Assembly: GCA_040905475.1 (NCBI GenBank)
Contig: JBBDRM010000035.1
Coordinates: forward strand, 1 to 48,409
Source of the DNA: Actinomycetota bacterium
GTDB lineage: Bacteria; Actinomycetota; AC-67
Length of the DNA stretch: 48,409 bases
Reading direction: 5' to 3'
The notes under the pieces are model-generated. The model was given only the letters and a program-made list of their open reading frames with translations. It was not told the DNA's origin and ran no database searches. Within the stretch, counting starts at the first letter, position 1, and every line of letters starts with the position of its first letter. Positions 1,754 through 19,168 of this stretch are shown one piece after another. A program made the position numbers and the translations under genes.

Positions 1754-4700
1754 CTAACGGGCACGTTCGAGCCACGCTTCCGCCTCAGCGATGCGAGGTT
1801 TCGCCTCGAGTCGACCGAAGATGTCCAGCGACCGTTGGAGCCATATGCGGGCGTCGGGTTTCCCGAGCTGAGCCAGGCACCGTCCGGCGCCGAGGGCGCA
1901 CGTCGCGTCTTCGACGACGTGCCCGTACTGGTTCCATCCCTCGGCGGCATCGACGTACGACCGAGCGGCATATTCTAGTTGCTGGCGGGCCTCGGCGATG
2001 GCCGCCCTGGACGTGAGAACCGCGTGTTCGAATCGCGGGAACGGCGGAAGATCGAGGTTCGTGAGGAGCTCCTCCGCCCGCCGAATATCGTTCGCCGCGA
2101 CGTAGGAGCGGATGACGTCCGGGAGCTGAATCCCTACGTATTGGCTCATGCCAGAGAGTTCCCGCGCCAATCGATCGAGTTCTGCCAGGGGTGCCGCGAC
2201 GTCGTCGATGCGCTGTTCGGACACGGCGGTCATCGCGGCGAGACTAAAGACCTGGGCCAGGACCGTCGTAAACGCAATCTCCCGAACTTCGTCTAGGTAT
2301 TCACCCAAGAGCGCTGAGGCGTCACGCGCAAGGCCGCGCATCAGCCGGACCCGGGTCGCGAGGACTCCGGCGAGGAGCCTCGCCCACGCTGCGCCGGTCT
2401 TTCGATGATGTCGTTCCAGGACTGCGGCTTGTTCAAGGAGTGCGTCCCAATGGCCGATCTCAAACATCTGCTCGAGGGCGAGCGTGTTGCCCACCATCTC
2501 CATGTTCGTTAGACCACGTCGGGCGGCGAAATCCACCTCTTCGCGGGCCCAATCCAGTGCCTGCCGCGGCCCTTCCGAGAACCAGATTGATTCTCCCAGG
2601 TTTCCCTGGATGCGAACGGCATGGGCTGCGGTTCCATGGTCGAGGGCGAGTGAAAGCGCTTCCTTCGCGTCCTCGATACCGCCGACGTCACCAAGATCCC
2701 ATCGAGCGAAGCCTTTCGCCTCGAGGCCTAGATATAGAGGCGCGCCGGGAGGCATGTCCCGGGCCGCCGTTAAGGCCCTTTCCGCGAATTCGATGGCTTC
2801 TCTCGATCGACCGCCGAGCATCAGCGCGTAGGCGGCATCTGCATACGCAGCCGCAAGGCGCTCTGGGTCGTTCCCTTCTTCCTCGAAGATCTTGATCGCT
2901 CTCTCGAGCGTTTCGAACGCAGGCGCTGGTCCCTTCGTCTGTCGGAGCGGGTACGACAGCGCGGCCCAGGCATCCGCTGCACCTACGCGATCGCCGATCC
3001 GGTCGCATTCCTCGATCGCCATACGAAGGTCGCGTTCCGACTCGCCGAGGCGGCCAGCGTGGTAGGCGGCCTTCCCGGCGGAGACCAGCACTCGGGTCCG
3101 GCCGAGGTCGTCGGGCGAGAACAACTCCAGCGCCCTGCGGTAGTACTGTTCCGCCCTGCCTGCGTCGAGGTTCAGCGCTCGGTCGCCGGCGAGTGTGAGG
3201 AACTGGCGGGCCCGTTGCTTGAGGTCGACCGCGTCGTCGGTGCCGCCGACGGTTTCCGCGATCCTCAAGGCCTCCAGGTAATGGTGAGCGAGCAGCTCGG
3301 CGTGGTCCTGGATGCGTTCTCCCGCTATCCCTTCGATCCACGCCGCGGCGGCGCGGTGCTTCTGGATGCGCCCTGCTCTCGGGATCTGTGCGTAGGCCAC
3401 GTCGCGCACGAGCGCGTGCCAGAAGGTGTACTCACGCTGATCCTTCACCGACGAGTTGCGGGCCGGTTTGACGAGCTCCTTGGCCGACAGCGCGTGAAGG
3501 CTTTCATGCACGTCACGCCCGGGGCGGTTGCCGATCGTGGCCACCGCCCCGTCCCAGAAGACCCTGCCCATCACCGAGGCGTCCTGAAGCAACGACTTCT
3601 TGTCCGCGGCGAGGGTGTCGAGGCGCGCGGCGATGAGCGCCTGCACGGAATCGGGGACGGGGATCTCGTCTTCGGATCCGGCGAGGTCCATGCCGTCGCC
3701 GACGACGCCGCGATCCTTCACCATCCGCACGAACTCGGCTGCGTACAGCGGGTTCCCCCCCGCGCGCTCGAGCACGAGCGCTTGCGTCTTCGGCGGAAGC
3801 ACCGAACGCTCCAACAGATCCGAGACCAACCGTGCGGTCTCTTCCTCCGTCAGCGGCCCGAGCGCGATCGTGTTGGAGTTGCGCTTCCCCCCGCCCCACC
3901 CGGCGGCTTGCTCGAAGAGCTCCGGACGCGCCGTGCAGAGGACGAACAGCGGCACGCCGGAGGACCAGTCGACGAGGTGCTCCAGAAACGCCCGCAAGGC
4001 CTCGTCCGCCCAATGCAGGTCCTCGAACACCAACACCATGGGTCCCCGGGTCGCGATGGCTTCGAACAATCGCCGCCACGCAGTGAACGACTCCGATCGG
4101 TCAGCAGCGTCCTTGGGTTGCGATGTGGCGATCCCGACGAGCGGCGCGGTCTGCGAGAGGATCCACTCCCGGTCGGACTCGTCTTCGACGGCCTCCTCGA
4201 TCGCGATGCCGAGTTTCTGTCGCGCCTCGTCTGTGCCGTCCGATTCGAGGATCCCGGCCTGAGCTTTGACGATCTCTCCGAGCGCCCAGAACGTGATGCC
4301 GTCGCCGTACGGCAGACAGCGGCCTTGCCGCCAGGAAACGAGATCCGGGAGCCCCTCGATGAAGTTGGAGAACTCCTCGACGAGGCGAGTCTTGCCCACG
4401 CCCGGTTCACCGGTGATCGTGACGAGCTGGACCGACGACTCGCGGACGCAGCGACCGTACGTGCGTTTCAACACCTCGACCTCGTCGTCCCGGCCGACGA
4501 AGGGCGAGAACGCGCCGCGCTCGACGTCGATCCCGAAGCGAGCGCGCGGCGCGACGGCCCGCCAGACGAGCAGCGCCTCGGACTTCCCTTTGACCTCGAC
4601 CGGCGGCAGCGCCTCGTAGTCGAAGACGCGAGCCGTCGTGCGGTACGTCTGCTCGCCGACCACGACCTTTCCCACCGGCGCGACCGCCTGGAGCCGACTG

Positions 4701-5197
4701 GCGCTGTTGACGACATCACCGGTGACGATGCCTTCTCCGAGCTCGGGCCGAGCAGAGAGCGTGACGAGCGCCTCGCCGGTGTTGATACCGACGCGGACGG
4801 CGATGCCCAGGCTGGGTTCGGAGCGGTTCAGCTCATCGATCGCATCGAGGATGTCGAGCCCGGCGCGAACCGCGCGTTCGGCGTCGTCCTCGTGCGCAAC
4901 CGGCGCACCGAACACGGCCATGACGGCGTCGCCGATGAACTTCTCGACGGTGCCGCCGAAGCTCGCGATCTCGCTGCGCAGGAGCGCGTGATAGGGGCGG
5001 AGAGCGGCGCGCACGTCCTCGGGATCGGCGCGGTCGGAGCGCGCGGTGAAGCCGACGAGGTCGCAGAACAGGACCGTGACGATCTTGCGTTCCTCGCTGG
5101 CGGCCGGCGGCACCGGCGCGGCAAGCGGCTGCCCGCAGTCGAGACAGAACCGCGCGCGCTTGGGATTCTCTGCGGAACACCTCGGGCACGCCGGCAT
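1754..5197 (-). CDS. Zinc-ribbon class III cyclase / STAND ATPase / TPR signalling protein
   Basis: 1147 residues. A zinc ribbon (CPRC...CLDC, residues 4-21) precedes a class III nucleotide cyclase domain (about 38-220) with metal aspartates D46 (LFCDLVGF) and D90 (FIGDAVMAVFG) and the transition-state pair N164/R168 (VNSASR). An AAA/STAND ATPase follows, with Walker A GEPGVGKT at 263-270 and a Walker B VLVFEDLHWAD. The C-terminal half is a helical TPR array. All cyclase catalytic residues are present, so it should make cAMP from ATP under control of the ATPase/TPR sensor; the ligand is unknown. A strong hairpin upstream (5246-5271) suggests its own transcription unit. A close architectural relative lies at 11663-14827. 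Confidence 0.9.
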   Translation of the reverse strand: MPACPRCSAENPKRARFCLDCGQPLAAPVPPAASEERKIVTVLFCDLVGFTARSDRADPEDVRAALRPYHALLRSEIASFGGTVEKFIGDAVMAVFGAPVAHEDDAERAVRAGLDILDAIDELNRSEPSLGIAVRVGINTGEALVTLSARPELGEGIVTGDVVNSASRLQAVAPVGKVVVGEQTYRTTARVFDYEALPPVEVKGKSEALLVWRAVAPRARFGIDVERGAFSPFVGRDDEVEVLKRTYGRCVRESSVQLVTITGEPGVGKTRLVEEFSNFIEGLPDLVSWRQGRCLPYGDGITFWALGEIVKAQAGILESDGTDEARQKLGIAIEEAVEDESDREWILSQTAPLVGIATSQPKDAADRSESFTAWRRLFEAIATRGPMVLVFEDLHWADEALRAFLEHLVDWSSGVPLFVLCTARPELFEQAAGWGGGKRNSNTIALGPLTEEETARLVSDLLERSVLPPKTQALVLERAGGNPLYAAEFVRMVKDRGVVGDGMDLAGSEDEIPVPDSVQALIAARLDTLAADKKSLLQDASVMGRVFWDGAVATIGNRPGRDVHESLHALSAKELVKPARNSSVKDQREYTFWHALVRDVAYAQIPRAGRIQKHRAAAAWIEGIAGERIQDHAELLAHHYLEALRIAETVGGTDDAVDLKQRARQFLTLAGDRALNLDAGRAEQYYRRALELFSPDDLGRTRVLVSAGKAAYHAGRLGESERDLRMAIEECDRIGDRVGAADAWAALSYPLRQTKGPAPAFETLERAIKIFEEEGNDPERLAAAYADAAYALMLGGRSREAIEFAERALTAARDMPPGAPLYLGLEAKGFARWDLGDVGGIEDAKEALSLALDHGTAAHAVRIQGNLGESIWFSEGPRQALDWAREEVDFAARRGLTNMEMVGNTLALEQMFEIGHWDALLEQAAVLERHHRKTGAAWARLLAGVLATRVRLMRGLARDASALLGEYLDEVREIAFTTVLAQVFSLAAMTAVSEQRIDDVAAPLAELDRLARELSGMSQYVGIQLPDVIRSYVAANDIRRAEELLTNLDLPPFPRFEHAVLTSRAAIAEARQQLEYAARSYVDAAEGWNQYGHVVEDATCALGAGRCLAQLGKPDARIWLQRSLDIFGRLEAKPRIAEAEAWLERAR

Positions 5198-5285: not shown

Positions 5286-5444
5286 TCAGCCGCCCCGCTT
5301 GAGAGCGGCCGTCTTGCGGGCGCTCTTGCGGCCACGCTTGAGGGCCGCGGTCTTGCGACCCGCCACCTTCGACTGCGCCTTGGACCCGGTCTTGCTAGCC
5401 AAGCGCGCCGCCGGTCGCTTCGGCTGGATCTTCTTCGCTGTCAT
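5286..5444 (-). CDS. Small lysine/arginine-rich histone-H1-like protein (copy 2)
   Basis: 52 residues with 11 Lys, 7 Arg and no acidic residue. It opens with MTAKKIQPKRPAAR and ends in two repeats of (K)TAALKRG. The start is set by a strong GGAGGAGGAGG just before the ATG. Composition and low-complexity K/A/S/T pattern resemble bacterial H1-like (Hc1-type) tails and the basic tails of actinobacterial HU, so nucleoid or RNA binding is the first guess. It is a tandem paralogue of the gene 24 bp upstream (28 of the first 33 residues identical). Conservation of the N-terminus and two good ribosome sites argue for a real gene. Location beside a PqqD-type protease also allows a peptide-substrate role, which is speculation. 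Confidence 0.75.
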   Translation of the reverse strand: MTAKKIQPKRPAARLASKTGSKAQSKVAGRKTAALKRGRKSARKTAALKRGG

Positions 5445-5468
5445 GACCTCCTCCTCCGGTGTTGTTGA

Positions 5469-5630
5469 TTAGCCGCCATACCTACTACCGGCCGTCTTGC
5501 GGGCGCTCTTGCGACCACGCTTCAACGGTCTGGCGGTCTTGCGGCTGGCCACCTTCGACTGCGCCTTCGAATCGGTCTTGCTCGCGGCGCGAGCCGCTGG
5601 CCGCTTCGGCTGGATCTTCTTGCCTGCCAT
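5469..5630 (-). CDS. Small lysine/arginine-rich histone-H1-like protein (copy 1)
   Basis: 53 residues: 10 Lys, 8 Arg, one Asp. It begins MAGKKIQPKRPAAR and contains LKRGRKSARKTAG near the end. An earlier in-frame ATG (5636) exists, but GGGAGG lies 8 nt before the ATG at 5630, which I prefer. It is the first of two tandem paralogues; the C-terminal tails differ (GSRYGG here, ALKRGG in the copy downstream). It follows the M50-CNB gene on the same strand after 121 bp that include the element at 5732-5745, so the pair may have its own promoter. Probable role: DNA- or RNA-binding basic protein; function untested. Confidence 0.75.
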   Translation of the reverse strand: MAGKKIQPKRPAARAASKTDSKAQSKVASRKTARPLKRGRKSARKTAGSRYGG

Positions 5631-5731
5631 CCCCATCGCCTCCCCTTCCTCGCCCGAGCCCTCTGCCCGGACACAGTCGAACCCTACGACCCGGGCACGT
5701 TTCCCTATATCTCAAAGGCGACACAAAAACC

Positions 5732-5745
5732 GTCGGCTCTCTGAC
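5732..5745. promoter_or_regulatory. Imperfect palindrome upstream of basic-peptide genes
   Basis: GTCGGC-TC-TCTGAC, with the left arm and the AACC flank identical to the perfect palindrome at 1698-1711. It overlies the last codons' side of the M50 gene and sits about 100 bp before the first basic-peptide start. Candidate operator only. Confidence 0.3.
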
Positions 5746-5751
5746 AGATGC

Positions 5752-7920
5752 TCAATGCTCCTGCTCCCAACCCACCGCGGCATGCGGACTGACCAACCCT
5801 CGCCGGAAAGCTCCCCGGACCAGCCGGTCAAAGCCTGCACGGCTCAAGCGGAACGCGCGGACCGGCGTCAACGTCCGAACCGATGCGGTGCGTGGCGAGT
5901 CGCGCAGGAGCGCAACCTCTCCCACGTGCGACCCCGGACCCAGTTCACGCACGCGTCTCCCGTCCTCCAACACCTCGACCCGGCCCGATCCGATCGCGTA
6001 GAACTCCGCCGCCTCGGCCCCTTGCTCGATGAGCGTGGACCCCGGCGCAACGTTCACCCACTCGCCCAGATACAGCACACGCGCCAGCTCGTCGGTCTCG
6101 AGATGGCGGAACGGTGGCAGGCGGCGCAGTTCCTCCAGCTGAGCCGCCGACGTCACCAAGCGCGGCCGTTGGGCGATGGGTTCGAGCAGCCGCTGGAACG
6201 TTCCGGCGTCAAGCTCAAAGACCTCGGACGGGACTGTGGCGCGGACGGTCGCGGTCCGCGTCGCGCGTTCGACGAGCCCGAGCTCCCCGAACGCTTCCCC
6301 ACGCCCGAGCGTGCGGATAACGCGCTCCCGCCCATCGTTTCCCTCCTCGACCACGTCGAGCGACCCCCGACGTACCACGTAATAAGCGCGGGCCGGCTCA
6401 CCCTGCCGGACTACGGGCTGGCCGCTCGCGATGCGCTGCAGACGCACGCGGCCGGCGATCTCGTTGAGCGTCTCGACCGGTAGCTCTTCGAACACCGCAA
6501 GTCGATCGAGAAGCCCAGCAGCTTCGACCCGCCAGCGTTTCTGTGCCCGGAACGCGACGGCACGCCAGAGATCACGGACGCGAAGGGCAAGCGATCGCAG
6601 AAGCTTCACGATCCCGCGAACGATCGGTCCCCCGATGAATACACCGAGCGCGACGAGCATGATCTTGCCGCCGAGCCCGCTTTCCCACATGCTTTCGATC
6701 ACGCTGAAGAACAGGCGCTTCCAGAAGAAGTAGCTCAGCCAGAACGAGAAGATCGTGAACGCGATCCCCACGACGCCGTAGACGAGGAGCCCCACCTCCA
6801 CCCGGTTGATCCGCACGCGCGTGCGCAGCTTGTGCCACAAGTCGTACCGCAGGAACGCGAGGGATCGCGGCCGCAGGTCGGGCACCTGGATCGCATCGGA
6901 GAGGATCCAGTAGCCGTCGAGCTCCAACAACGGCACCAGGTTCATCCACAGGATGAAGTAGTTGAGGACCGCCCATTTGTAGAGCGTCGGCGCGCCCCAG
7001 CCGTCGGGGTTGAGCCACACGTACAAGGCCGCAGGCGCCGCGAGGATCATCTCGGCGTACGGCCCGGCCCACGCCTGCCCGATGCGCGTGCGGCGGTCGA
7101 GCATCATCGCGTCCGACGAATCGACGAAGAACGCCGGCGCGCCGTAGTAGATCCGGAACCCGGCACTCTTCACACGCCGGCCGTGCCGGATGACGACCAG
7201 CGCATGGCCGAGCTCGTGCGCGAAGATGATGAACAGGTTGAGGATCCAGATGATCACGAACTCGACGCCGGCGCTCGTCGGCTCGAGATGGTACGCGCCG
7301 GGCTGTATCAGTCCGCCGAACGCGACTAGGCCCGCGACGGCGATCAGACCGCACACGATCTTCGCAGGGCGGGTGAACAGATACTTCAGCCCATTCCGAT
7401 AGAGCCACCGCACCAGCCGGTCGGCGTCGGACCACTCGATCGACAACGTCCGGAAGAATTCTTTGGCCCTCGCACGCCGGCGGGACACCGGCTTCAACCC
7501 GCGCCGGACCGCGGCATCGACGTCTTCGAACGGGGGCTCCAGGAAGCCGCCGATGCGGAGTTGGGTGATGAGGTCGGCGACGGCGTCAGGGTCGAGCCCC
7601 TCTTCCGCTCCAAGACGCTCGGCAACGAGCTCGTTGACGGTCCGCGTCCCATCCATGCGCCGCATGAGTTCCGCCTCCCAAGGCAGCAGCCGATAGAAGA
7701 CGAGGTCCCGCGGGTTCGCGGCCATCGCGTAGTCGTTGCCCCAGCGAAGCGTGAAGTCTTTGATCTCGATGTCCGGCGCGAGTAGAGGCTTGTAGAGCGT
7801 AGGGTCGAGCCGCTCTCGAACTTGCCTCCAAGCGCCCCGATCGAACACCTCTCCGTCTCGTGATGAGGACGCCACGGCACGGCCGAGCTCCAGCCATACA
7901 TCAGAAGGAGGCGCAGTCAC
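5752..7920 (-). CDS. PqqD-like / M50 intramembrane metalloprotease with two cyclic-nucleotide-binding domains
   Basis: 722 residues, GTG start. Residues about 50-130 look like a PqqD-type peptide-recognition winged helix. Membrane segments surround the M50 zinc site: H235-E-L-G-H239 in a hydrophobic helix, and MNLVPLLELDG at 326-336, which supplies the third ligand D335 as in site-2 proteases. More membrane helices follow (about 372-400 and 417-440). The cytosolic C-terminus carries two CNB domains with phosphate-binding cassettes FGELGLVERATRTATV (544-559) and VGEVALLRDSPRTASV (666-681); the second is canonical. The architecture predicts a cAMP- or cGMP-controlled intramembrane peptidase. 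It lies 52 bp after the secreted serine protease gene and upstream of the basic-peptide genes. The substrate is unknown. Confidence 0.88.
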   Translation of the reverse strand: MTAPPSDVWLELGRAVASSSRDGEVFDRGAWRQVRERLDPTLYKPLLAPDIEIKDFTLRWGNDYAMAANPRDLVFYRLLPWEAELMRRMDGTRTVNELVAERLGAEEGLDPDAVADLITQLRIGGFLEPPFEDVDAAVRRGLKPVSRRRARAKEFFRTLSIEWSDADRLVRWLYRNGLKYLFTRPAKIVCGLIAVAGLVAFGGLIQPGAYHLEPTSAGVEFVIIWILNLFIIFAHELGHALVVIRHGRRVKSAGFRIYYGAPAFFVDSSDAMMLDRRTRIGQAWAGPYAEMILAAPAALYVWLNPDGWGAPTLYKWAVLNYFILWMNLVPLLELDGYWILSDAIQVPDLRPRSLAFLRYDLWHKLRTRVRINRVEVGLLVYGVVGIAFTIFSFWLSYFFWKRLFFSVIESMWESGLGGKIMLVALGVFIGGPIVRGIVKLLRSLALRVRDLWRAVAFRAQKRWRVEAAGLLDRLAVFEELPVETLNEIAGRVRLQRIASGQPVVRQGEPARAYYVVRRGSLDVVEEGNDGRERVIRTLGRGEAFGELGLVERATRTATVRATVPSEVFELDAGTFQRLLEPIAQRPRLVTSAAQLEELRRLPPFRHLETDELARVLYLGEWVNVAPGSTLIEQGAEAAEFYAIGSGRVEVLEDGRRVRELGPGSHVGEVALLRDSPRTASVRTLTPVRAFRLSRAGFDRLVRGAFRRGLVSPHAAVGWEQEH

Positions 7921-7972
7921 GACGGCTCTAGCCGCTCATCGGAAACCGAACTGGCGGTTCCGAAGGAGCCTC

Positions 7973-8848
7973 CTAGGCGGCCGATGAAGCGATGAAATCG
8001 CTGAACGGCGCAACCTCGGCGTACACACCGGGTTTGCCGGGCCTGGCACACCCGTCGCCGAACCAGGTCACGCCAATCAGGATCCACTCGCCTTCAGACG
8101 ACTTCGCGAGCAACGGGCCTCCCGAGTCCCCTTGGCAGGTGTCGACGCCGCCTTCGTCGTACCCTGCGCAGACCATCGTCTCGGCAACGAAGTCCTCCGG
8201 ATATGCGGCCGCGCATGCAGCGTCGGCAACGATCGGGACCTCTGCCTCCTGGAGCTGATACGTGGGATCGAGCATCGCCTGCATGATCGCGCCTGCCGGG
8301 CCGAGAGGGGCCTCCTCACGCAGGCCCCAGCCGATGATCGTCGACAGGGTCCCCGCTGGGTACAGGGATTCGTCGCTCGGCGCGGCCCAGCGGAGGACAG
8401 GCTGTGTGGAATCTTCGTAAAGTTCGATCACCAGGAGGTCACTGTTCGGATCCGAGACGCGATGGAAGGCTTTGATGCGGATCCGCTCGCCGCCTTCCTG
8501 GAGGTCCGTCGTTCCGAGCAGCACGCTCAAGCCGAGCCCGGCGGGATCCGCCGGAAGGGCGGCTAAGGTTGGATCGATGAACGGTGAAAGGGTCGGGTCG
8601 ACAAACGGCGCCATGCAATGACCGGCTGATATGACGAAACGCGGTGCGACGAGAGCGCCTCCGCAGTTGGGTCCTCGGACCAGGGGGACCGGGCCGGCCG
8701 GGTCGTCACCGCGATACATCGCAGCGGCCCAGGGATACTCACCCGGGTCGGCCGGCTGCCCCCCGACGACGGCGCTCGACGTCCCGCCGATCGAGAGGAC
8801 GAGCGCGATCGGCAATACGAACCGAGAAACTTGGCGCAAGCCTTTCAT
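7973..8848 (-). CDS. Secreted trypsin-like serine protease (S1A)
   Basis: 291 residues with a signal peptide (about 1-26). The mature chain would start VVGG at 27, the position of the trypsin activation site. The catalytic triad is visible: H77 (SAGHC), D137 (NSDLLVIEL), S242 (GDSGGPL). D236, six residues before the serine, predicts cleavage after Arg/Lys. Cysteines occur at the usual places (C62/C78, C227/C238 region). The start follows GGGGGTGAGAG. It sits between crp and the M50-CNB gene on the same strand, so the three may be co-regulated. Chymotrypsin-fold proteases with a full trypsin signature are scattered in actinobacteria. Confidence 0.93.
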   Translation of the reverse strand: MKGLRQVSRFVLPIALVLSIGGTSSAVVGGQPADPGEYPWAAAMYRGDDPAGPVPLVRGPNCGGALVAPRFVISAGHCMAPFVDPTLSPFIDPTLAALPADPAGLGLSVLLGTTDLQEGGERIRIKAFHRVSDPNSDLLVIELYEDSTQPVLRWAAPSDESLYPAGTLSTIIGWGLREEAPLGPAGAIMQAMLDPTYQLQEAEVPIVADAACAAAYPEDFVAETMVCAGYDEGGVDTCQGDSGGPLLAKSSEGEWILIGVTWFGDGCARPGKPGVYAEVAPFSDFIASSAA

Positions 8849-9026
8849 CTCTCACCCCCTGTTGCCATCCTCAAAGCGGTGCCTTTTGGTTGCAATAGGG
8901 CAGTTAGCCCATCTTTGACCCGACTGGGGCGAGGATAGCTGGAAGCGCTGTTTCCAACCGTCGCCGTGATGACACTCCAGCGGCAGTTGAGGGATCGGGT
9001 CATGCCGGGTCGGCTTGCCGGCCCCA

Positions 9027-9683
9027 TTATGAACGTGCTCGGCGGCGCAACTCCTCGATGTCGCGGACCTCGATACGGCCGCGACCCAGGGCGATCATCA
9101 AGGACCGCTCGGCGTCCTTGAGGACGGAATTGACGGTCGGGCGAGTCGCCCCCGCGAGGGCGGCAATGTCGTCCTGACTCAAGGGGATGACCAGGTCGGT
9201 CGTCCCCTCCGCATACACATCGCCCAACGCCAGCAACCGGCGGAACACCCGCGTCTGGACGGGGACGAACAACGCCTCCAGAAGGTGAGACGTCAGCCGC
9301 TTCACCTGTGTGGCGAGGGCTGCAGCCAAGACCTCGTTGACCTCTGGGGATCGCGAACGGATGTCCTGGAAGGCGTCGCGATGGATGATCACCGTCTCGG
9401 TGGGCTCGAGCGCGACGATCGTCGCCGTTCGCGCCGGTGGAGGTGTGATCAACGCCATCTCGCCGAAGAAGTCTCCGGACCCGAGCACGGCGAGCGTCGC
9501 GACGTCACCACGCGGGGTCGTCACGCGAACGGAAACGCGGCCGCTCTCGATCAGATGAAGCGTCTCGGCGGGATCACCCTGATGGAAGATGATCTCGTTC
9601 CGCGCATACCTGCGACGCCGCGCGAGCGCGAGGAGTGAGTCTCGCTCTTCGGGCGATAGGCCGGCGAGGAGTTCCCACTCCAT
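9027..9683 (-). CDS. Crp/Fnr-family transcriptional regulator
   Basis: 218 residues. A CNB domain (about 1-120) with the cassette FGEMALITPPPARTATI (73-89), which includes the E75 and R85 expected for cAMP contact, is followed by a dimerisation helix and a winged helix-turn-helix (about 164-215, SQDDIAALAGATRPTVNSVL). It probably senses cAMP made by the cyclases nearby and regulates transcription. The ATG lies 3 bp after the stop of the small zinc-protein gene, so the two form one operon. Codons 1-75 are inside the perfect 447-bp repeat and recur in the chimeric ORF at 18348-18947. Confidence 0.92.
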   Translation of the reverse strand: MEWELLAGLSPEERDSLLALARRRRYARNEIIFHQGDPAETLHLIESGRVSVRVTTPRGDVATLAVLGSGDFFGEMALITPPPARTATIVALEPTETVIIHRDAFQDIRSRSPEVNEVLAAALATQVKRLTSHLLEALFVPVQTRVFRRLLALGDVYAEGTTDLVIPLSQDDIAALAGATRPTVNSVLKDAERSLMIALGRGRIEVRDIEELRRRARS

Positions 9684-9904
9684 CGGTCAGTCCAGCTCCG
9701 GCAACACCACCGGATCGGGTCTCGGCGAACAGGTACCGCACCAGAGGGCATCTTCGACGACGAGGACTTTGATCGGACCTTCGCCGCGTGCGCGATAGAG
9801 CTCGAGGATGTAGGGACGATCCTGTACATGGTCCTCGCAGAGGCCTCGCGCACAGAAACGGCAAGAGCCCACCGCCGTCTTCCTGCAATGCCAGCAGTCC
9901 ACTT
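9458..9904. repeat. 447-bp perfect direct repeat, copy A
   Basis: Reads identically, base for base, to 18722-19168 (offset 9264). It contains nearly all of the zinc-protein gene and codons 1-75 of crp. Similarity continues weakly for about 10 bp past a 1-bp indel at 9904/19168, then both flanks are unrelated. The lack of any substitution implies a recent duplication or ongoing gene conversion. Confidence 0.95.
9687..9902 (-). CDS. Small cysteine-rich zinc-binding protein (copy A)
   Basis: 71 residues from a GTG at 9902. Paired cysteines C3/C6 (CWHC), C14/C17 (CRFC), C22 with H25 (CEDH), then C55/C58 (CGTC) form a B-box-like or DUF2180-like zinc module. No catalytic motif is seen; a role in protein or nucleic-acid contacts is likely. 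It is followed at once by crp (3-bp gap). Compared with the second copy at 18951-19181, one T is missing just before this start, so the MGAR start of the other copy is out of frame and only GTG remains, with a weak AGGGG upstream. Expression of this copy may therefore be lower. Confidence 0.75.
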   Translation of the reverse strand: MDCWHCRKTAVGSCRFCARGLCEDHVQDRPYILELYRARGEGPIKVLVVEDALWCGTCSPRPDPVVLPELD

Positions 9905-11662: not shown

Positions 11663-14600
11663 TCAGGCGGTTTCCAGCTCCTGGAGTGCGGCTCTCGCCC
11701 TCGCGGCGGAAACGACGTTCTCCTTCTCCTCGTAGAGCGCGAGCGCTGCCCGCAACATAGTCCTGGCATCGTCACGCCGGCCGCCCCGGATGAAGATCGA
11801 CGCCGCATCCACCCTGGTGTCTGCCTGGTCGTTGATCGCGTGAGAGGCATCGACGATCGCGAGCGCTTCTCGTATGAGTTCCTCGGCTCCATCGAGATCG
11901 CCTCTGGCCGCGAGTAGCTGCGCTTTCGCGCGACGCCATTCCATCTGCGTGACGGCATCCTCTGCCCCACCGGTTTCTCGGCTGATCTCAGCCAATGCCT
12001 CCGCCTCGTCATAACGACCGCACGCATGGAGCGCCAGCGCAGAGGCTGACGCAAGCGTCGACAGGTAAGTGCGCTCGCCTAGTTTGCTCAGGATGTCGTA
12101 GTCAGGCTGTAGATGTGCGACGGCCGCCTCCGGGTCGCCCGCCAGCATCTCGACCTTTGCGGCGAAGTACGAATACGTGGCCCCGAGGACGGTTCGGCCT
12201 GCGTCGTCAACGAGAGCTCGACCGTCGCGATACTGCTGGCGCGCCGTAATGAAGTCGCCTCTCCGTGCATGGAGAAGCGACTCGAAGATCGAGAGCAGAC
12301 CGCGCGCGAAGCGGTCCTCTCTGAGGTCATCATTCAAGGCGTGAAGCCGCTTGAACGCCTCTGATGTCGGGACATGCCCCTCGACCGCGACAAGGAGCAG
12401 CCAGATGGCAGCATCCAGAAAAGCGCGTCTGTCGCCTGCCCTCCGGGCATAGTCCAGCGCCCGCATCAGCGCCTCCTCGGCGTGTCGCGTCATCATCCCG
12501 AACAGATGGTTATCCGCAACGAGCTTCCAGACCTTCGCCAATGCCGCATCGTCGCCGGATACCTCGAAGATCCGCACAAGGTCCTCCGACTTCCGATAGG
12601 CCTTCATGGCTTCCTCGGGCTGAACCATCACTTGACGCCGCCAACGTTCAAGCGCCACAAGCGCTCCGAGGCGCGCATCGCTCCCAGGCGCAACGGCCTC
12701 AGCATTGTTGATCGAAGCTTCGGCCGCATCGAACTCGCCGCCCTCGGTCTGAGCTGCAGCGAGATCTACCAGGAGTTCGACGTGCCGAGAGCCGCGGTCA
12801 GGCGAGAGGGCTACCGCGCGAGCCAGCAGTCGCGAAGCAGCCGGCATGTCGGAGCGGGCCAGTGCGCGCCGGCCCGCACGAGCCAGGTACTCCGTCGCGC
12901 GCCCGGCCAACTCCATCCCCGCCGAGCCGACCGGCCCGAGCTCGGAAGACCAACGGAATGCTTGCTCGAAGTGATAGCCGACGATCTCCTCCAGCTCGAT
13001 GGCGCGATCGCCGAGCGAGGCTTCGAGCCATCGGGCGAACCGTTCGTGCAGGGCGGCACGCGATTCCTTGGTCACTGCGGCGTACGCCGCATCGCGGATG
13101 AGGATGTGTCGGAATCGATAGCTGGGGGCCGTCGTCGACGGATCCGGTTGGATGAGATCGCGCCGCTCGAGCGCGTCGAGGCTCGGGACGAGGGCGTCTC
13201 GCAGCTGATCCCCGGCCAGATGGCGGACCTCCTCCTCCTCGAACGTCCGCCCAATGACGGACCCGCATCCGATCACGGTTCGCTCCTCGTCCTGAAGCTG
13301 GTCGAGGCGCGCCGCGAGGATCCCTTCGATCGTCGCGGGCATCTTCAATTCGGCCGGATCGCCGGCGAGTGCCCATGACCCGTTCTCGCGACGGAGAACG
13401 CCTTGGTCCACGAGCATCCCCACGAGCTCTTCGAGGAAGAGCGGGTTTCCTTCGGCGATCGCGACCATCCGCCCGGCGACGTTGCCCGCGATAGCGGCCT
13501 CTCCGAGAAGGATCGTCACAAGATCACCCGCTGCGTTTTCCGGCAACGCCTCGAGCGCGATACGAGGACCGACCTCGACCCATGAAGGGCGCTCTTCCAA
13601 GAGTTCCGGCCGTGCCGGGCAAACGATCAAAAGAGGAGCCGCGACGCGCGCCTTCAGATATTCGAGCATGTCGAGGAACGTCGGCTCCGCCCAATGGATG
13701 TCTTCGAAGACGAGAGCCAGCCCGGCTGGACGAGCGACCGCCTCAAACACCTTTCGAACAGCCCAGAAGAGCTCGTGGGTCGCCACACCGAGGCCTCCGA
13801 CACCGAGGATCTCAGCAACCCCGTTCATGATCGCGGCCTGCTCGGGATCTCCGGCGATGAGCCGGCCGATCTTGGCGCCGACGCCCTCCGCGTCATCCTC
13901 ATCGAGGATACCGGCCGCTTGTTTGATCGCTTCCGCCGCGGGCCAGAACGTGATCCCTTCACCGTAGGGAAGACATCGAGCACGCACGACCCCGCGATCG
14001 ACGCCGGCTAAGAACTCGGCCGTGAGCCGGGATTTTCCTATCCCGGGCGAGCCGAGGATCGTGACGAGCTCACAGGAACTACCGCGCCATACGCGCTCGG
14101 CAAACTCACGTAGTTGCGCAAGCTCGGGGTCTCGGCCGATCAGCGGCACGCCACGCGCACGGCGCGCCGAGGCGTCTTTGCGTATGTCGATCAGCCGATG
14201 TGCGGCGATACGGTCGGCCTTGCCTTTGACTGAGAGCGGTTCGATCGCTTCCGTTGTCGCAGCATCCCGGATCAGCGAATACGTGATAGGGCCGATCACG
14301 ATCTCGCCGGCCGAAGCCGCCTGTTCCAAGCGGGCCGCGAGATTGACCGCGTCTCCGGTGACCAGCGTTTGACCGACGGCGGGATCGCCCGTCACGACCT
14401 CGCCGGTATTCACGCCGATCCGGATCGCCAGGCGGGTTCCCCAGCGCGATTCGAACTCGTCGTTCAACTGCTCGAGCGCCCGGCGCATCTCGTCCGCCGC
14501 GCGTACGGCTCGCATCGCGTCATCCTCGTGGAGCTTCGGGATCCCGAACACGGCCATAACCGCGTCGCCGATGAACTTCTCGACCGCGCCGCCGTGTCGC

Positions 14601-14827
14601 TCCAGCACGGCCCGCATCTCCCCGAAATAGCGGGACATCACCCCACGCACGGTTTCGGGGTCGAACCGTTCTCCCAGCTCGGTCGACCCGACGATGTCCG
14701 AGAACACAATCGTTACCGTCTTTCGGATCCGCGACGGCGCCGCCGTGCCGGCCAATGCGGAGCCGCACGACGAGCAGAAGCGCGCGTGCTCGGGATTCTC
14801 GGCGCCGCAGTTCGGGCATGCAGCCAC
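11663..14827 (-). CDS. Zinc-ribbon class III cyclase / STAND ATPase / TPR protein (second)
   Basis: 1054 residues. The zinc ribbon (CPNC...CSSC, residues 4-21) is followed by a cyclase domain with metal aspartates D44 (VFSDIVGSTE) and D88 (FIGDAVMAVFG) and N162/R166 (VNLAAR). An ATPase domain has Walker A GSPGIGKS (259-266) and Walker B LVFEDIHWAEP; a long TPR region ends ALQELETA. It has the same domain order as the protein at 1754-5197 but differs throughout, so it is an old paralogue. All cyclase catalytic positions are kept. Its tail resembles the remnant at 9978-10244. It is divergent from the 14866 remnant and the gene at 15068. Confidence 0.9.
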   Translation of the reverse strand: MAACPNCGAENPEHARFCSSCGSALAGTAAPSRIRKTVTIVFSDIVGSTELGERFDPETVRGVMSRYFGEMRAVLERHGGAVEKFIGDAVMAVFGIPKLHEDDAMRAVRAADEMRRALEQLNDEFESRWGTRLAIRIGVNTGEVVTGDPAVGQTLVTGDAVNLAARLEQAASAGEIVIGPITYSLIRDAATTEAIEPLSVKGKADRIAAHRLIDIRKDASARRARGVPLIGRDPELAQLREFAERVWRGSSCELVTILGSPGIGKSRLTAEFLAGVDRGVVRARCLPYGEGITFWPAAEAIKQAAGILDEDDAEGVGAKIGRLIAGDPEQAAIMNGVAEILGVGGLGVATHELFWAVRKVFEAVARPAGLALVFEDIHWAEPTFLDMLEYLKARVAAPLLIVCPARPELLEERPSWVEVGPRIALEALPENAAGDLVTILLGEAAIAGNVAGRMVAIAEGNPLFLEELVGMLVDQGVLRRENGSWALAGDPAELKMPATIEGILAARLDQLQDEERTVIGCGSVIGRTFEEEEVRHLAGDQLRDALVPSLDALERRDLIQPDPSTTAPSYRFRHILIRDAAYAAVTKESRAALHERFARWLEASLGDRAIELEEIVGYHFEQAFRWSSELGPVGSAGMELAGRATEYLARAGRRALARSDMPAASRLLARAVALSPDRGSRHVELLVDLAAAQTEGGEFDAAEASINNAEAVAPGSDARLGALVALERWRRQVMVQPEEAMKAYRKSEDLVRIFEVSGDDAALAKVWKLVADNHLFGMMTRHAEEALMRALDYARRAGDRRAFLDAAIWLLLVAVEGHVPTSEAFKRLHALNDDLREDRFARGLLSIFESLLHARRGDFITARQQYRDGRALVDDAGRTVLGATYSYFAAKVEMLAGDPEAAVAHLQPDYDILSKLGERTYLSTLASASALALHACGRYDEAEALAEISRETGGAEDAVTQMEWRRAKAQLLAARGDLDGAEELIREALAIVDASHAINDQADTRVDAASIFIRGGRRDDARTMLRAALALYEEKENVVSAARARAALQELETA

Positions 14828-15021: not shown

Positions 15022-15067
15022 CGCTCGGCCCTCTCTTCGACCGTCCTTGATTGCGAGCCCATCCAGC

Positions 15068-17809
15068 ATGTATCCCTTGCCCATGACCCTACCGTCGGGG
15101 ACCGTGTCGCTGCTGTTCACCGACATCGAGGGCTCCACCCGGCTGCTGCATGAGCTCGGCGATCGCTATGCCGAGGCGCTCGGACAGCATCGAGGGCTTC
15201 TTCGCGAGGCCTTCACCAAGCACGGCGGTGTCGAAGTAGACACGCAAGGCGACGCATTCTTCATCGCCTTTCAACGAGCGCCCGACGCGATCGCTGCTGC
15301 TGCTGACGCGCAAGTCGCCTTGGCGGCCGCGTCCTGGCCGGACGACAAGCCGGTCCGCGTCAGGATGGGCATCCACACCGGTACGCCCACCCGGGTGGCC
15401 GAAGGGTACGTTGGGATCGACGTCCACCGCGGCGCGAGGATCTGCGCCGTTGGGCACGGCGGCCAGGTGCTCGTCTCAGCCCAAGCGCGCGCTACGGGGG
15501 TCGAGCACGACTTCAAGTTCCGCGATCTCGGCGATCATGCGCTAAAGGATCTCGCGGAACCGCAGCAGCTCTACCAACTCCTCATCCGCGGTCTGGCAGA
15601 GGACTTCCCGCCTCTTCGTTCGCTTCGGCCCACGAACCTCCCCACGCCGGCCAGCTCTCTGGTGGGTCGCTCGGCAGAGCTTCGCGCGATCGTCGAGCAG
15701 ATGCGTCGCGGCGGCGTCCGTCTGCTAACGCTTACGGGAGCGGGCGGGAGCGGCAAGACGCGTCTGTGCATCGAAGCCGCCCGCCGCCTCTTGGACGACT
15801 ATCCGGCCGGGTGCTTCTTCGTCGGTTTCGCTTCCGTGAGCGAGTCGGATCTCATCGTTCCTACGATCGGTCGCGTCTTGGGGATCCGCGATGCGTCCGG
15901 GGCCCTCCTGTTGGACGCGATCGGTCGACGCGTCGCAGGCAAGAAGCTCCTCTTGGCCTTGGACAACCTCGAGCATCTGCCAAAGGCCGGGCTCGCGGTA
16001 AGCGAGATCCTTAGCGCCGCGCCGGAGCTTAACGTTCTCGCCACGAGCCGGCAGCCCCTGCACTTGTCAGGGGAAACGCGGTTCGCCGTGCCGCCGCTCG
16101 ATCTGCCGGATACGCGACACGACCAGGAGCTGGGAACGATCGCCCGCTCGGAGGCCGTCGCGTTGTTCGTCGAGCGCGCTCGCGCCGTCGATCCGAATTT
16201 CGACCTCACCGATGACAACGCGAAGATCGTCGCAGAGATCTGTGCAAGGCTCGACGGCCTGCCTTTGGCGATCGAGCTCGCCACCGCGCGACTCTCAATC
16301 CTGTCTCCAGCCGAGATCCTCGCAAGATTGGATGACAGGCTGAGTTTGTTGACCGTTGGCGGTGGCGACCTGCCCGAACGGCAACAGACGCTCGCCGCCA
16401 CGATCGAGTGGAGCTTTAACCTGCTCGATCCCAACGTTCGGGCCACACTTGCGACCCTGTCCGTCTTCGCGGAATCGTTCACCATGGACGCCGCCACGTT
16501 CGTCTGCAGGCCGAACCATGAGATCGAACTCGTGGACCATCTCCAGGCGCTCACGGACTTCAACCTTCTCGTACGACGTGACGTCGACGCGGATCGTCGT
16601 CTCGGGATGCTGGAAACGGTCGCGGAATTCTCCCGTAACCGCCTGGAGGACTCAGGAGTCGCGACCGAGACGCGGATGCGACACGCGGACTATTACATCG
16701 AGTTGACCGAACGCGGCGATAAGGAGCTGATGGGTCCCAACGCCGCGACATGGGCGAGGACCCTCGATCGAGAGATGGACAACATACGACGAGCGCTCCG
16801 CTGGCTTGCCGAGACGAAGCAGACAGACCAGGCTCTACGACTCCTCGTGCCACTCGCGCGGTGCTGGACATATCACGGCCGCTTCTCAGAGGCTCTTCAG
16901 TGGCGCGACCGATTTCTTCCTGGCGTTCAGGAGACCTCGCAGCTCGCCGCTAAGGCGTACCGGACATCCGGTGACCTCGCAGTAACAGTAGGCGACTATC
17001 GGGGTGCTGAACCGCTGTTGCTCAAGGCGCGGTCGATGTTCGAAGAAATGGGCGACGTATCAGGGATGGCCGAGGCTCTCAATGGTCTGGCACGTCTTGA
17101 GATTTGCCAAGCCCATTGGGAGGCGAGCGTCGCATTCAGCGAATCGGCGGTTGCGGCCGCGCGAAAGTGCACGGATCGTCGCATCGAGGTTCGAGCTCTT
17201 CGATCGCTCGCGGTGGCGCTGGCGGAGAAAGGCGAGTTCGAGCTCGCGGCGACGAGATACGAGGAAGCAGCGCTTCTGGCGCGCGAGCTTGAATACCATT
17301 GGGAGATGTCCATCATCCGGGCGAACATGAGCTGGTTTTCCTACATCCAAGGTGACTACATCGGCGCACGGTCCCTAGGCGAGGAGTCGCTCGCCGAATC
17401 GAACGCGCTGGGGCTCGCGCGAACAAATGCTCCGCAGCTCCATACGTTAGGTCTTGTAGCACTGCGCGATCACGAACTGCGGCGCGCGCGCGACCTTCTC
17501 ATCGAAGGACTGGTGCTCTCCCACGAGAACGGTGAACCCTTCGACTGGGCGTCGTGCGCGGACGGCCTGGCGGGAGTCGCCGCCGTGGCGGGGGAGTATG
17601 TGGCCGCCGCGCGACTTTTCGGCGCGGCGACGGAGTCGTGGGGAAGAATCGACGCACCGTTGCCACCGTTCATCCGTGACGCGTACGAAACCAACCTCTC
17701 GTCGGCCCGTCGCGATCTCGGCGAAGCACGTTGGGAAGATGAGTTCCGCGCGGGCCGAGCTATGACACCGGATGAGACACACCAGCTAGCAGAGGGTCTG
17801 CTCGAATGA
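15068..17809 (+). CDS. Class III cyclase / NB-ARC STAND ATPase / TPR regulator
   Basis: 913 residues from the ATG at 15068. A TTG at 15047 and an ATG at 15083 (MTLPSGTVSLLFTDIEG, the usual family start) are alternatives; none has a good ribosome site. The cyclase domain comes first (FTDIEGSTRL metal Asp; DTQGDAFFIAF second Asp; GxH-TGT). The NB-ARC ATPase has Walker A TGAGGSGKTRL, Walker B LLLALDNLEHL and the GLPLAIELA motif. TPR-type helices fill the C-terminal half. There is no DNA-binding domain. It probably couples ligand or partner sensing to cyclic-nucleotide synthesis. The remnants at 14866 and 21434 come from relatives of this protein. Confidence 0.88.
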   Translation: MYPLPMTLPSGTVSLLFTDIEGSTRLLHELGDRYAEALGQHRGLLREAFTKHGGVEVDTQGDAFFIAFQRAPDAIAAAADAQVALAAASWPDDKPVRVRMGIHTGTPTRVAEGYVGIDVHRGARICAVGHGGQVLVSAQARATGVEHDFKFRDLGDHALKDLAEPQQLYQLLIRGLAEDFPPLRSLRPTNLPTPASSLVGRSAELRAIVEQMRRGGVRLLTLTGAGGSGKTRLCIEAARRLLDDYPAGCFFVGFASVSESDLIVPTIGRVLGIRDASGALLLDAIGRRVAGKKLLLALDNLEHLPKAGLAVSEILSAAPELNVLATSRQPLHLSGETRFAVPPLDLPDTRHDQELGTIARSEAVALFVERARAVDPNFDLTDDNAKIVAEICARLDGLPLAIELATARLSILSPAEILARLDDRLSLLTVGGGDLPERQQTLAATIEWSFNLLDPNVRATLATLSVFAESFTMDAATFVCRPNHEIELVDHLQALTDFNLLVRRDVDADRRLGMLETVAEFSRNRLEDSGVATETRMRHADYYIELTERGDKELMGPNAATWARTLDREMDNIRRALRWLAETKQTDQALRLLVPLARCWTYHGRFSEALQWRDRFLPGVQETSQLAAKAYRTSGDLAVTVGDYRGAEPLLLKARSMFEEMGDVSGMAEALNGLARLEICQAHWEASVAFSESAVAAARKCTDRRIEVRALRSLAVALAEKGEFELAATRYEEAALLARELEYHWEMSIIRANMSWFSYIQGDYIGARSLGEESLAESNALGLARTNAPQLHTLGLVALRDHELRRARDLLIEGLVLSHENGEPFDWASCADGLAGVAAVAGEYVAAARLFGAATESWGRIDAPLPPFIRDAYETNLSSARRDLGEARWEDEFRAGRAMTPDETHQLAEGLLE

Positions 17810-18136: not shown

Positions 18137-18378
18137 CAGGGCTCGGCGGCGATCGACTCCCGCAGCGACGCCTCCCATGCGGCGTCGGCGACCTGAGGGC
18201 GACGCGTGTACGCCTCGACGATCTGGTTATCGATCGCCGCGCCGATGGCGTCTGCGAGGTAGGTCTCGACCGCTTCCCTGATCAGTTGAGATCTGGAAAC
18301 ACCCCTCTCGGCCGCCCGCTGGTCGAGCGCCGCGAGAAGCTCCTGGTTCAGCTGGACCAGCGTAGCGGTTCGCGCCAT
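18133..18378 (-). CDS. Ribbon-helix-helix antitoxin of the MazF pair
   Basis: 81 residues. The start MARTATLVQLNQELLAALDQ followed by RAAERGVSRSQLIREAVETY is a CopG/MetJ-type RHH fold: a DNA-binding strand and two helices. The acidic C-terminal stretch would wrap the toxin. A perfect palindrome directly abuts the ATG, so autoregulation is likely. The 5' end overlaps the 3' end of the chimeric CNB-cyclase frame. Confidence 0.87.
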   Translation of the reverse strand: MARTATLVQLNQELLAALDQRAAERGVSRSQLIREAVETYLADAIGAAIDNQIVEAYTRRPQVADAAWEASLRESIAAEPW

Positions 18379-18947
18379 GACAATATCGTAGCATATTGTT
18401 CACGGTTCGCCGTGGTTGCCGCGTCAAGACCCGCCCTCTCGGGCGGCCGGGCCTCGGCGCACGCGGCCTGGAGTTCCACCGCTGCGCGAACAGCCTGCGC
18501 GGTCGAGGTGAACACGGCCAGCGCCTCGTCGCCGCGAAGCTCGATGACTTGCCCGCCGCGCGCTTCGACCGCGTCGCGGGCCAGGTCGGCGAACTTCTTC
18601 GCCAGACGCGCGGCCGCCGCATCGCCGTGCTCGCGCGTGAACGCCGTGTATCCGCGAACGTCGGCGATCAGGAACGTCCGCACGGAAACGGCGGTCGCGG
18701 AATCAGCCGGCGGTTCCGAGGTCTCGCCGAAGAAGTCTCCGGACCCGAGCACGGCGAGCGTCGCGACGTCACCACGCGGGGTCGTCACGCGAACGGAAAC
18801 GCGGCCGCTCTCGATCAGATGAAGCGTCTCGGCGGGATCACCCTGATGGAAGATGATCTCGTTCCGCGCATACCTGCGACGCCGCGCGAGCGCGAGGAGT
18901 GAGTCTCGCTCTTCGGGCGATAGGCCGGCGAGGAGTTCCCACTCCAT
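18348..18947 (-). CDS. Chimeric CNB half-domain / truncated cyclase ORF
   Basis: 199-codon frame. Residues 1-75 equal those of Crp (9027-9683), ending at GDFFGE inside the cAMP-binding cassette. From residue 76 it becomes a class III cyclase (about 88-172) with metal aspartates D96 (FLIADVRGYTAF) and D140 (ELRGDEALAVF). The cyclase lacks its second half (no G-H-TGE strand, no N/R pair). The frame then runs through the antitoxin operator and stops inside the antitoxin gene. Both domains are incomplete, so the product is probably inactive. It starts 3 bp after the second zinc-protein gene. It is best read as a product of recombination followed by toxin-antitoxin insertion. Confidence 0.7.
   Translation of the reverse strand: MEWELLAGLSPEERDSLLALARRRRYARNEIIFHQGDPAETLHLIESGRVSVRVTTPRGDVATLAVLGSGDFFGETSEPPADSATAVSVRTFLIADVRGYTAFTREHGDAAAARLAKKFADLARDAVEARGGQVIELRGDEALAVFTSTAQAVRAAVELQAACAEARPPERAGLDAATTANREQYATILSWREPLRWSS
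18380..18399. promoter_or_regulatory. Operator palindrome of the RHH/MazF module
   Basis: ACAATAT-CGTAGC-ATATTGT, a perfect 7-bp inverted repeat beginning one base before the antitoxin ATG. It is AT-rich in GC-rich surroundings, as expected for an RHH operator overlapping the promoter. Confidence 0.7.
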
Positions 18948-19168
18948 CGGTCAGTCCAGCTCCGGCAACACCACCGGATCGGGTCTCGGCGAACAGGTAC
19001 CGCACCAGAGGGCATCTTCGACGACGAGGACTTTGATCGGACCTTCGCCGCGTGCGCGATAGAGCTCGAGGATGTAGGGACGATCCTGTACATGGTCCTC
19101 GCAGAGGCCTCGCGCACAGAAACGGCAAGAGCCCACCGCCGTCTTCCTGCAATGCCAGCAGTCCACTT
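18722..19168. repeat. 447-bp perfect direct repeat, copy B
   Basis: Identical to 9458-9904. At its left end the crp frame is replaced by the cyclase frame within one codon. At its right end the zinc-protein gene has a normal ATG and ribosome site, so this copy looks like the ancestral 5' context, while copy A has the intact 3' context. Confidence 0.95.

Follow-up and report, generated by a model that had tools for sequence, protein, structure and literature searches.

A minus-strand locus from a soil Actinomycetota bacterium encodes a protease that joins, in one chain, an RRE/PqqD-like domain, the membrane core of an M50 site-2 protease, and two cyclic-nucleotide-binding (CNB) domains, and in two phyla this protease was accompanied by a small zinc-finger protein (ZF) and by short peptides composed of a leader and a variable tail. 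We give about an even chance to the reading that this site-2 protease, gated by a cyclic nucleotide, uses its RRE to bind the leader/variable-tail micropeptide and then cleaves it, with ZF as a partner. The window, that is, the whole stretch of 48,409 nucleotides that was analyzed, belongs to an assembly of 4.24 Mb in 173 contigs, and its relatives are Actinomycetota MAGs. The row of six minus-strand genes at positions 5286–9902 reported in a preliminary description was recovered exactly where it had been placed, and consists of the genes for ZF, Crp, and a trypsin, followed by those for the PqqD-M50-CNB-CNB protease and for a pair of lysine-rich micropeptides (Table 1). A 60-amino-acid ORF at positions 8845–9027 had no homologue and is unlikely to represent a real gene.

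Table 1. Features of the protease locus and its flanks in the window.
Feature	Position	Strand	Basis or remark
ZF, 71-aa acidic zinc-finger protein	9687..9902	-	near-obligate protease partner
Crp/Fnr-type regulator, CNB + HTH_Crp_2	9027..9683	-	Pfam
Trypsin-like secreted serine protease	7973..8848	-	Pfam PF00089, 2.6e-40
RRE(PqqD)-M50 site-2 protease-CNB-CNB, 722 aa	5752..7920	-	Pfam, predicted fold
RRE/PqqD-like winged-helix domain, residues about 40-130	7531..7803	-	predicted fold; PF05402 in relatives
HELGH zinc-ligand and catalytic motif, residues 235-239	7204..7218	-	invariance in relatives
LDG third zinc ligand, residues 334-336	6913..6921	-	invariance in relatives
CNB1, residues about 490-582	6175..6453	-	PF00027; E546 and R555 invariant
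CNB2, residues about 607-700	5821..6102	-	PF00027; E668 and R677 invariant
Micropeptide 1	5469..5630/5636	-	family with KK[IV]xP leader; Shine-Dalgarno-like sequence
Micropeptide 2, tandem paralogue of micropeptide 1	5286..5444	-	codon comparison; Shine-Dalgarno-like sequence
Zinc-ribbon class III cyclase-AAA-TPR protein, downstream neighbour	1754..5197	-	Pfam
Zinc-ribbon class III cyclase-AAA-TPR protein, upstream flank	11663..14827	-	
Class III cyclase-ATPase protein, further flank	15047..17809	+	
Second copy of the ZF gene, DNA-identical, inside an exact 446-bp repeat	18951..19166	-	

Site-2 proteases (M50) are characterized by an HExxH motif, a distal (N/L)xxPxxxLDG motif, and a membrane core of several spans. 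In the window protease, Pfam detected Peptidase_M50 (2e-6) and, twice, cNMP_binding (4.1e-43); HELGH lies at residue 235 and ELDG, within LLELDG, at residue 333, and simple hydropathy revealed four strongly hydrophobic stretches. Residues H235, E236, H239, N327, P330, L334, D335, and G336 were invariant across 44 protease relatives, and the protein matched SpoIVFB and MJ0392, so that the M50 assignment originally based on HELGH and LDG is upheld. AlphaFold2, with 44 sequences as input, modelled residues 1–452 with a pLDDT of 90.5. The top PDB match of the membrane core of this model in Foldseek was SpoIVFB bound to pro-sigmaK, and its N-terminal domain matched the leader-bound RREs 5v1u, 5v1v, and 6jx3 (TbiB1:leader, lasso B1:leader) and PqqD 5sxy; the Foldseek probabilities were 0.99–1.00, yet the E-values of the RRE and PqqD matches were just 0.1–0.3 and each match spanned only part of the model. 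RRE/PqqD domains are winged folds of three strands and three helices that bind peptide leaders, and the predicted fold of the N-terminal domain is of this kind, in agreement with the PqqD-like domain proposed earlier. The Pfam PqqD model (PF05402) was significant in five of the 44 relatives (best, 1.1e-6) and had no significant match in the window protease itself. The two proposed C-terminal CNB cassettes each carry PF00027 together with the Glu and Arg of the phosphate-binding cassette, which were invariant in both domains across 17 sequences, and their closest solved relatives were the tandem CNBs of PKG/PKA. The concern that the PqqD and CNB parts might fail to model as those folds does not apply, because both parts proved to be real.

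Across the 44 relatives, the protease part matched no NCBIfam models other than those of RiPP-maturation M50s, with E-values reaching 2e-56 for daptide_HExxH and 1e-17 for YydH/LiaK. The window protease itself scored 147.7 bits (E = 4.9e-43) against the daptide protease NF041824 and 41.4 bits against the YydH/LiaK epipeptide protease NF058609, below the respective equivalog cut-offs of 300 and 225. M50 proteases such as EpeP, TglG, and TmoG process RiPP precursors (PMC10885120). Like EpeP/YydH of the epipeptides, the daptide HExxH protease, and TglG/TmoG of the pearlins, the window system combines an M50 membrane protease with small precursor-like peptides; unlike them, it has two CNB domains, ZF, and a different peptide family, it scores below the daptide and YydH/LiaK cut-offs, and no conserved tailoring gene was recognized at its Actinomycetota loci. 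A RiPP cluster is one in which an enzyme of the cluster modifies the precursor; lacking a conserved tailoring enzyme, the Actinomycetota loci may therefore not be RiPP loci in the strict sense, and current RiPP rules may miss such peptides because this enzyme is absent. Each of the domains, and the maturation of small peptides by M50 proteases, is already known. Nevertheless, in line with the earlier remark that no such system was known to have been described, a search of libraries and openly licensed PMC papers returned no description of the RRE-M50-CNB-CNB architecture, the ZF partner, or the micropeptide family, and no paper in the openly licensed PMC literature combined M50, PqqD, and cyclic nucleotide-binding.

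The protease shares its fold and catalytic motifs with SpoIVFB and other site-2 proteases. SpoIVFB acts on pro-sigmaK and is not known to have RRE or CNB domains. As the top structural match is the SpoIVFB:pro-sigmaK complex, classic regulated intramembrane proteolysis (RIP) must be weighed, in which the protease would cut a membrane-anchored regulator or an upstream single-pass protein, and the micropeptides would be regulators, adaptors, or inhibitors. A single-pass membrane protein does precede the protease and overlap its start in seven or more Actinomycetota loci (by a 4-nt ATGA overlap in L012, L034, L037, L039, L040, and L042, and by a longer overlap in L035), making it an alternative candidate substrate, and a related ZF adjoins PrsW, another intramembrane protease, in two genomes (G016 and G091). 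However, the upstream protein is missing from the window and from many loci, whereas ZF and the micropeptide are near-constant; no function is known for an RRE in ordinary RIP; and the sole curated matches of the protease are the RiPP-processing M50s. We therefore consider classic RIP a rather unlikely account, albeit one to be taken seriously. In four loci (L034:9475–10227, L037:3735–4439, L039:6204–6944, and L040:9142–9366), the overlapping membrane protein has a conserved C-terminal TM segment and a VYxxIxRR-like tail.

A CNB-type domain in a peptide-processing enzyme has a precedent in HetC of Nostoc, a peptidase-containing ABC exporter that needs its CNB-type domain, for which ppGpp was the ligand found (PMC10986499). 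HetC resembles the window protease as a membrane peptide-processing enzyme with a CNB-type regulatory domain (essential in HetC), but it is a C39 cysteine protease and ABC transporter, and its CNB is N-terminal. Because that CNB binds ppGpp rather than cAMP, cAMP should not be assumed to be the ligand of the window protease.

In Pycsar, a PycC cyclase is paired with a CNB effector bearing a TIR or TM toxic domain. Were the locus a Pycsar-like anti-phage defence, a cyclic nucleotide from the neighbouring cyclases would turn the CNB-protease into a toxic effector. Its CNB parts matched the CNB domains of PADLOC Pycsar effectors (6.6e-24) and the downstream cyclase matched PycC models, but the matches were confined to these shared CNB and cyclase domains and the pairing was not conserved, so membership was rejected. 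The class III cyclases reported on both sides of the locus are indeed there in the window, but cyclases recurred as neighbours at only a minority of the loci; with 38 cyclase-domain matches counted across the genome, they were rejected as dedicated partners. As the protease is, furthermore, mostly single-copy and has a dedicated peptide and ZF, unlike a defence system, we regard the defence reading as highly improbable. The secreted trypsin is likewise genuinely present, but it had no homologue in any of the related neighbourhoods and was set aside as a local passenger; neither it nor the flanking cyclases should be counted in the system without new evidence. Crp adjoins the protease in most Actinomycetota loci, as the window had suggested, but it falls into two unrelated lineages: one comprises the Crp proteins of the window and of the paralogue locus (52% identical), the other is the common type, and the two are 25–34% apart, so that Crp as a single orthologous partner was rejected. 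No Crp boxes (TGTGA-N6-TCACA) were found at the locus, such boxes being rarer than chance in the window, and no sigma-70 promoters were found.

The full protease architecture was conserved at 45–58% identity in about 20 Actinomycetota genomes of several families, most of the family members coming from MAGs. The window genome has a paralogue with 38% identity, and its locus likewise contains ZF, a basic micropeptide, and Crp. When neighbours were tabulated, as the preliminary description had proposed, the constant core consisted of the protease, the 70-aa ZF, a lysine-rich micropeptide, and usually Crp, most often in the order protease, ZF, micropeptide, Crp. Because the neighbours were non-random, the worry that this architecture might have random neighbours in other genomes is removed. 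In a survey of 297 Actinomycetota genomes, ZF was found in 17 of the 20 protease genomes (four weak or partial matches were left out) versus two of the 277 others (Fisher p about 1e-22). The micropeptide likewise occurred in 17 of the 20, against one weak match elsewhere (Fisher p about 1e-23); these p-values ignore shared ancestry and are descriptive, and the argument rests on the repeated adjacency and on a second phylum. The misses among the 20 genomes were mostly proteases truncated at contig ends. One protease relative (L047:1–2079) has DEMGH in place of HELGH, a substitution with which it is possibly catalytically inactive, and the micropeptide is still present on another contig of the same genome (G192:C201).

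The 71-aa ZF had not been singled out earlier, and proved to be the most conserved partner of the protease. It has eight conserved Cys/His residues (C3, C6, C14, C17, C22, H25, C55, and C58) in a cross-brace-like pattern, and is 65–72% identical to its Actinomycetota relatives and 46–48% identical to those in Chloroflexota. Its AlphaFold2 model (pLDDT 84) had no good match in the PDB, where the search returned only weak matches to a cross-brace finger and B-box fragments. In several Chloroflexota loci, the ZF gene overlaps the protease gene, which points to a complex. In two other Actinomycetota genomes (L156:7470–9213 and L157:7198–8842), a diverged ZF gene sits between the gene for a PrsW-family intramembrane protease and that for a small protein (winged-helix-like in L156), which suggests that this finger could partner intramembrane proteases more generally.

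The micropeptides, which have a pI of 12, a net charge of about +17, and compositions rich in Lys, Arg, and Ala, turned out to be more than the basic peptides first described: they form a true conserved family and are the best candidates for the substrate, bearing in mind that a micropeptide need not be a substrate by chromosomal adjacency. Micropeptide 1 (MAGKKIQPKRPAA...AQSKVASRKT...) and micropeptide 2 differ by 9 synonymous and 10 nonsynonymous codons, and strong Shine-Dalgarno-like sequences precede both. The Actinomycetota micropeptides share the start MAxKK[IV]xPK and mostly have ATRV[TS]K in mid-sequence, after which they diverge, these leader and junction motifs having been derived from the same sequences that they describe. 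The enrichment of the RVSK motif near the protease was modest (p = 0.002), with the motif read off these same sequences, and the motif is weak in the window micropeptides (QSKVASRK). Repetitive tails in Actinomycetota included (RSAT)n, (RDSK)n, and (VKR)n. In a repeat test, 12 of 22 tails beat their shuffles, 10 of these 12 being from Actinomycetota; two of the 22 tested were from Chloroflexota.

This composition allows another reading, in which the micropeptides are histone-H1-like nucleic-acid-binding proteins or antimicrobial polycations with no link to the protease beyond a common operon, and the protease acts on some other molecule, by degradation or export. Lysine-rich, repetitive tails of such charge could belong to histone-like, nucleic-acid-binding proteins. 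However, the KK[IV]xPK leader is conserved and non-random, co-occurrence with the protease is strict, the micropeptides occupy the same slot as the Os1348 precursors of Chloroflexota, and the tail in L033 is not lysine-rich; we therefore regard this reading as distinctly unlikely.

A scan of named genomes identified 79 loci, and those outside Actinomycetota were mostly in Chloroflexota, including Chloroflexus, Roseiflexus, and Oscillochloris. The Chloroflexota proteases have the same architecture with a shorter or longer linker, and the protease–ZF pair often precedes Os1348/NHLP-type RiPP precursors in the micropeptide slot; at some of the nearest loci, these scored above the curated cut-off (NF038399), and L075 additionally has a RiPP radical SAM C-methyltransferase (2e-195). 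ZF was found in 26 of 28 such genomes, and NF038399 peptides in 26 of the 28 versus none of 14 controls. In a survey of 201 Chloroflexota genomes, with a strong protease match set at E of at most 1e-100, ZF was present in 24 of 25 strong-protease genomes versus 10 of the 176 others, and Os1348/NHLP precursors in 21 of 25 versus 22 of 176. Loci L229, L235, and L236 showed the order protease, ZF with an overlapping stop/start, and Os1348-type precursor. The precursor tails were highly variable, and tandem-repeat tails occurred in both phyla. The Os1348-leader peptides at L229:3872–4327 and L235:3630–3938, with their long tandem-repeat tails of (NSAEAL)n and (ARNT)n, are an unusual kind of precursor.

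The leaders of these precursors often finish in LDxRVSK, resembling ATRV[TS]K of the Actinomycetota micropeptides. The micropeptides are thus like the Os1348/NHLP precursors in their slot after ZF, their leader and variable tail, and an often RVSK-like junction; unlike them, neither the window micropeptides nor their Actinomycetota relatives matched NF038399, the window micropeptides matched no other family, and sequence homology was not detectable. The shared slot, the variable and often repetitive tails, and the RVSK-like junction therefore indicate that the micropeptide fills a RiPP-type precursor slot without being detectably homologous.

In the gated-protease reading that we prefer, the micropeptide would be made as a conserved leader with a tail that is variable, basic, and in many cases repetitive; the cytoplasmic N-terminal RRE/PqqD domain of the protease would hold the leader; and the M50 membrane core (HELGH...LDG) would cut the peptide, most likely close to the [T/D]xRV[S/T]K junction, so that the tail is released or exported. 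Gating of the protease, by a cyclic or other nucleotide, would fall to the two cytoplasmic C-terminal CNB domains. ZF, whose translation in Chloroflexota is often coupled to that of the protease, may pair stoichiometrically with either the protease or the peptide, and Crp, where present, would link expression to the same signal. If true, this would be a direct link from nucleotide second messengers to the intramembrane proteolysis of a ribosomal peptide. More tentatively, and with the chances somewhat against it, a two-phylum family can be proposed in which a cyclic-nucleotide-gated intramembrane RRE-S2P-CNB2 protease with an obligate ZF releases leader/repeat-tail peptides without a tailoring enzyme, and in which ZF also partners PrsW-type proteases; the level of a second messenger would then directly control peptide release in soil Actinomycetota and Chloroflexota. 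The analysis names two uncharacterized gene families with a testable partner, the 70-aa zinc finger and the leader/repeat-tail peptide, and the conserved three-gene signature of protease, ZF, and leader peptide can be used to find peptide products.

Two further features of the window concern its assembly and annotation. An exact 446-bp direct repeat (9458–9903 = 18722–19167) contains ZF and the start of Crp, and in the 18722–19167 copy the CNB half continues in frame into an apparent class III cyclase fragment (ORF 18348–18947, in which Pfam detects the CNB part only); the repeat is either a recent duplication or an assembly artefact. At positions 139–1971, an ORF for an LVIVD-repeat beta-propeller protein shares sequence with the 3′ end of the gene for the downstream cyclase; the real start of this ORF probably lies further downstream.
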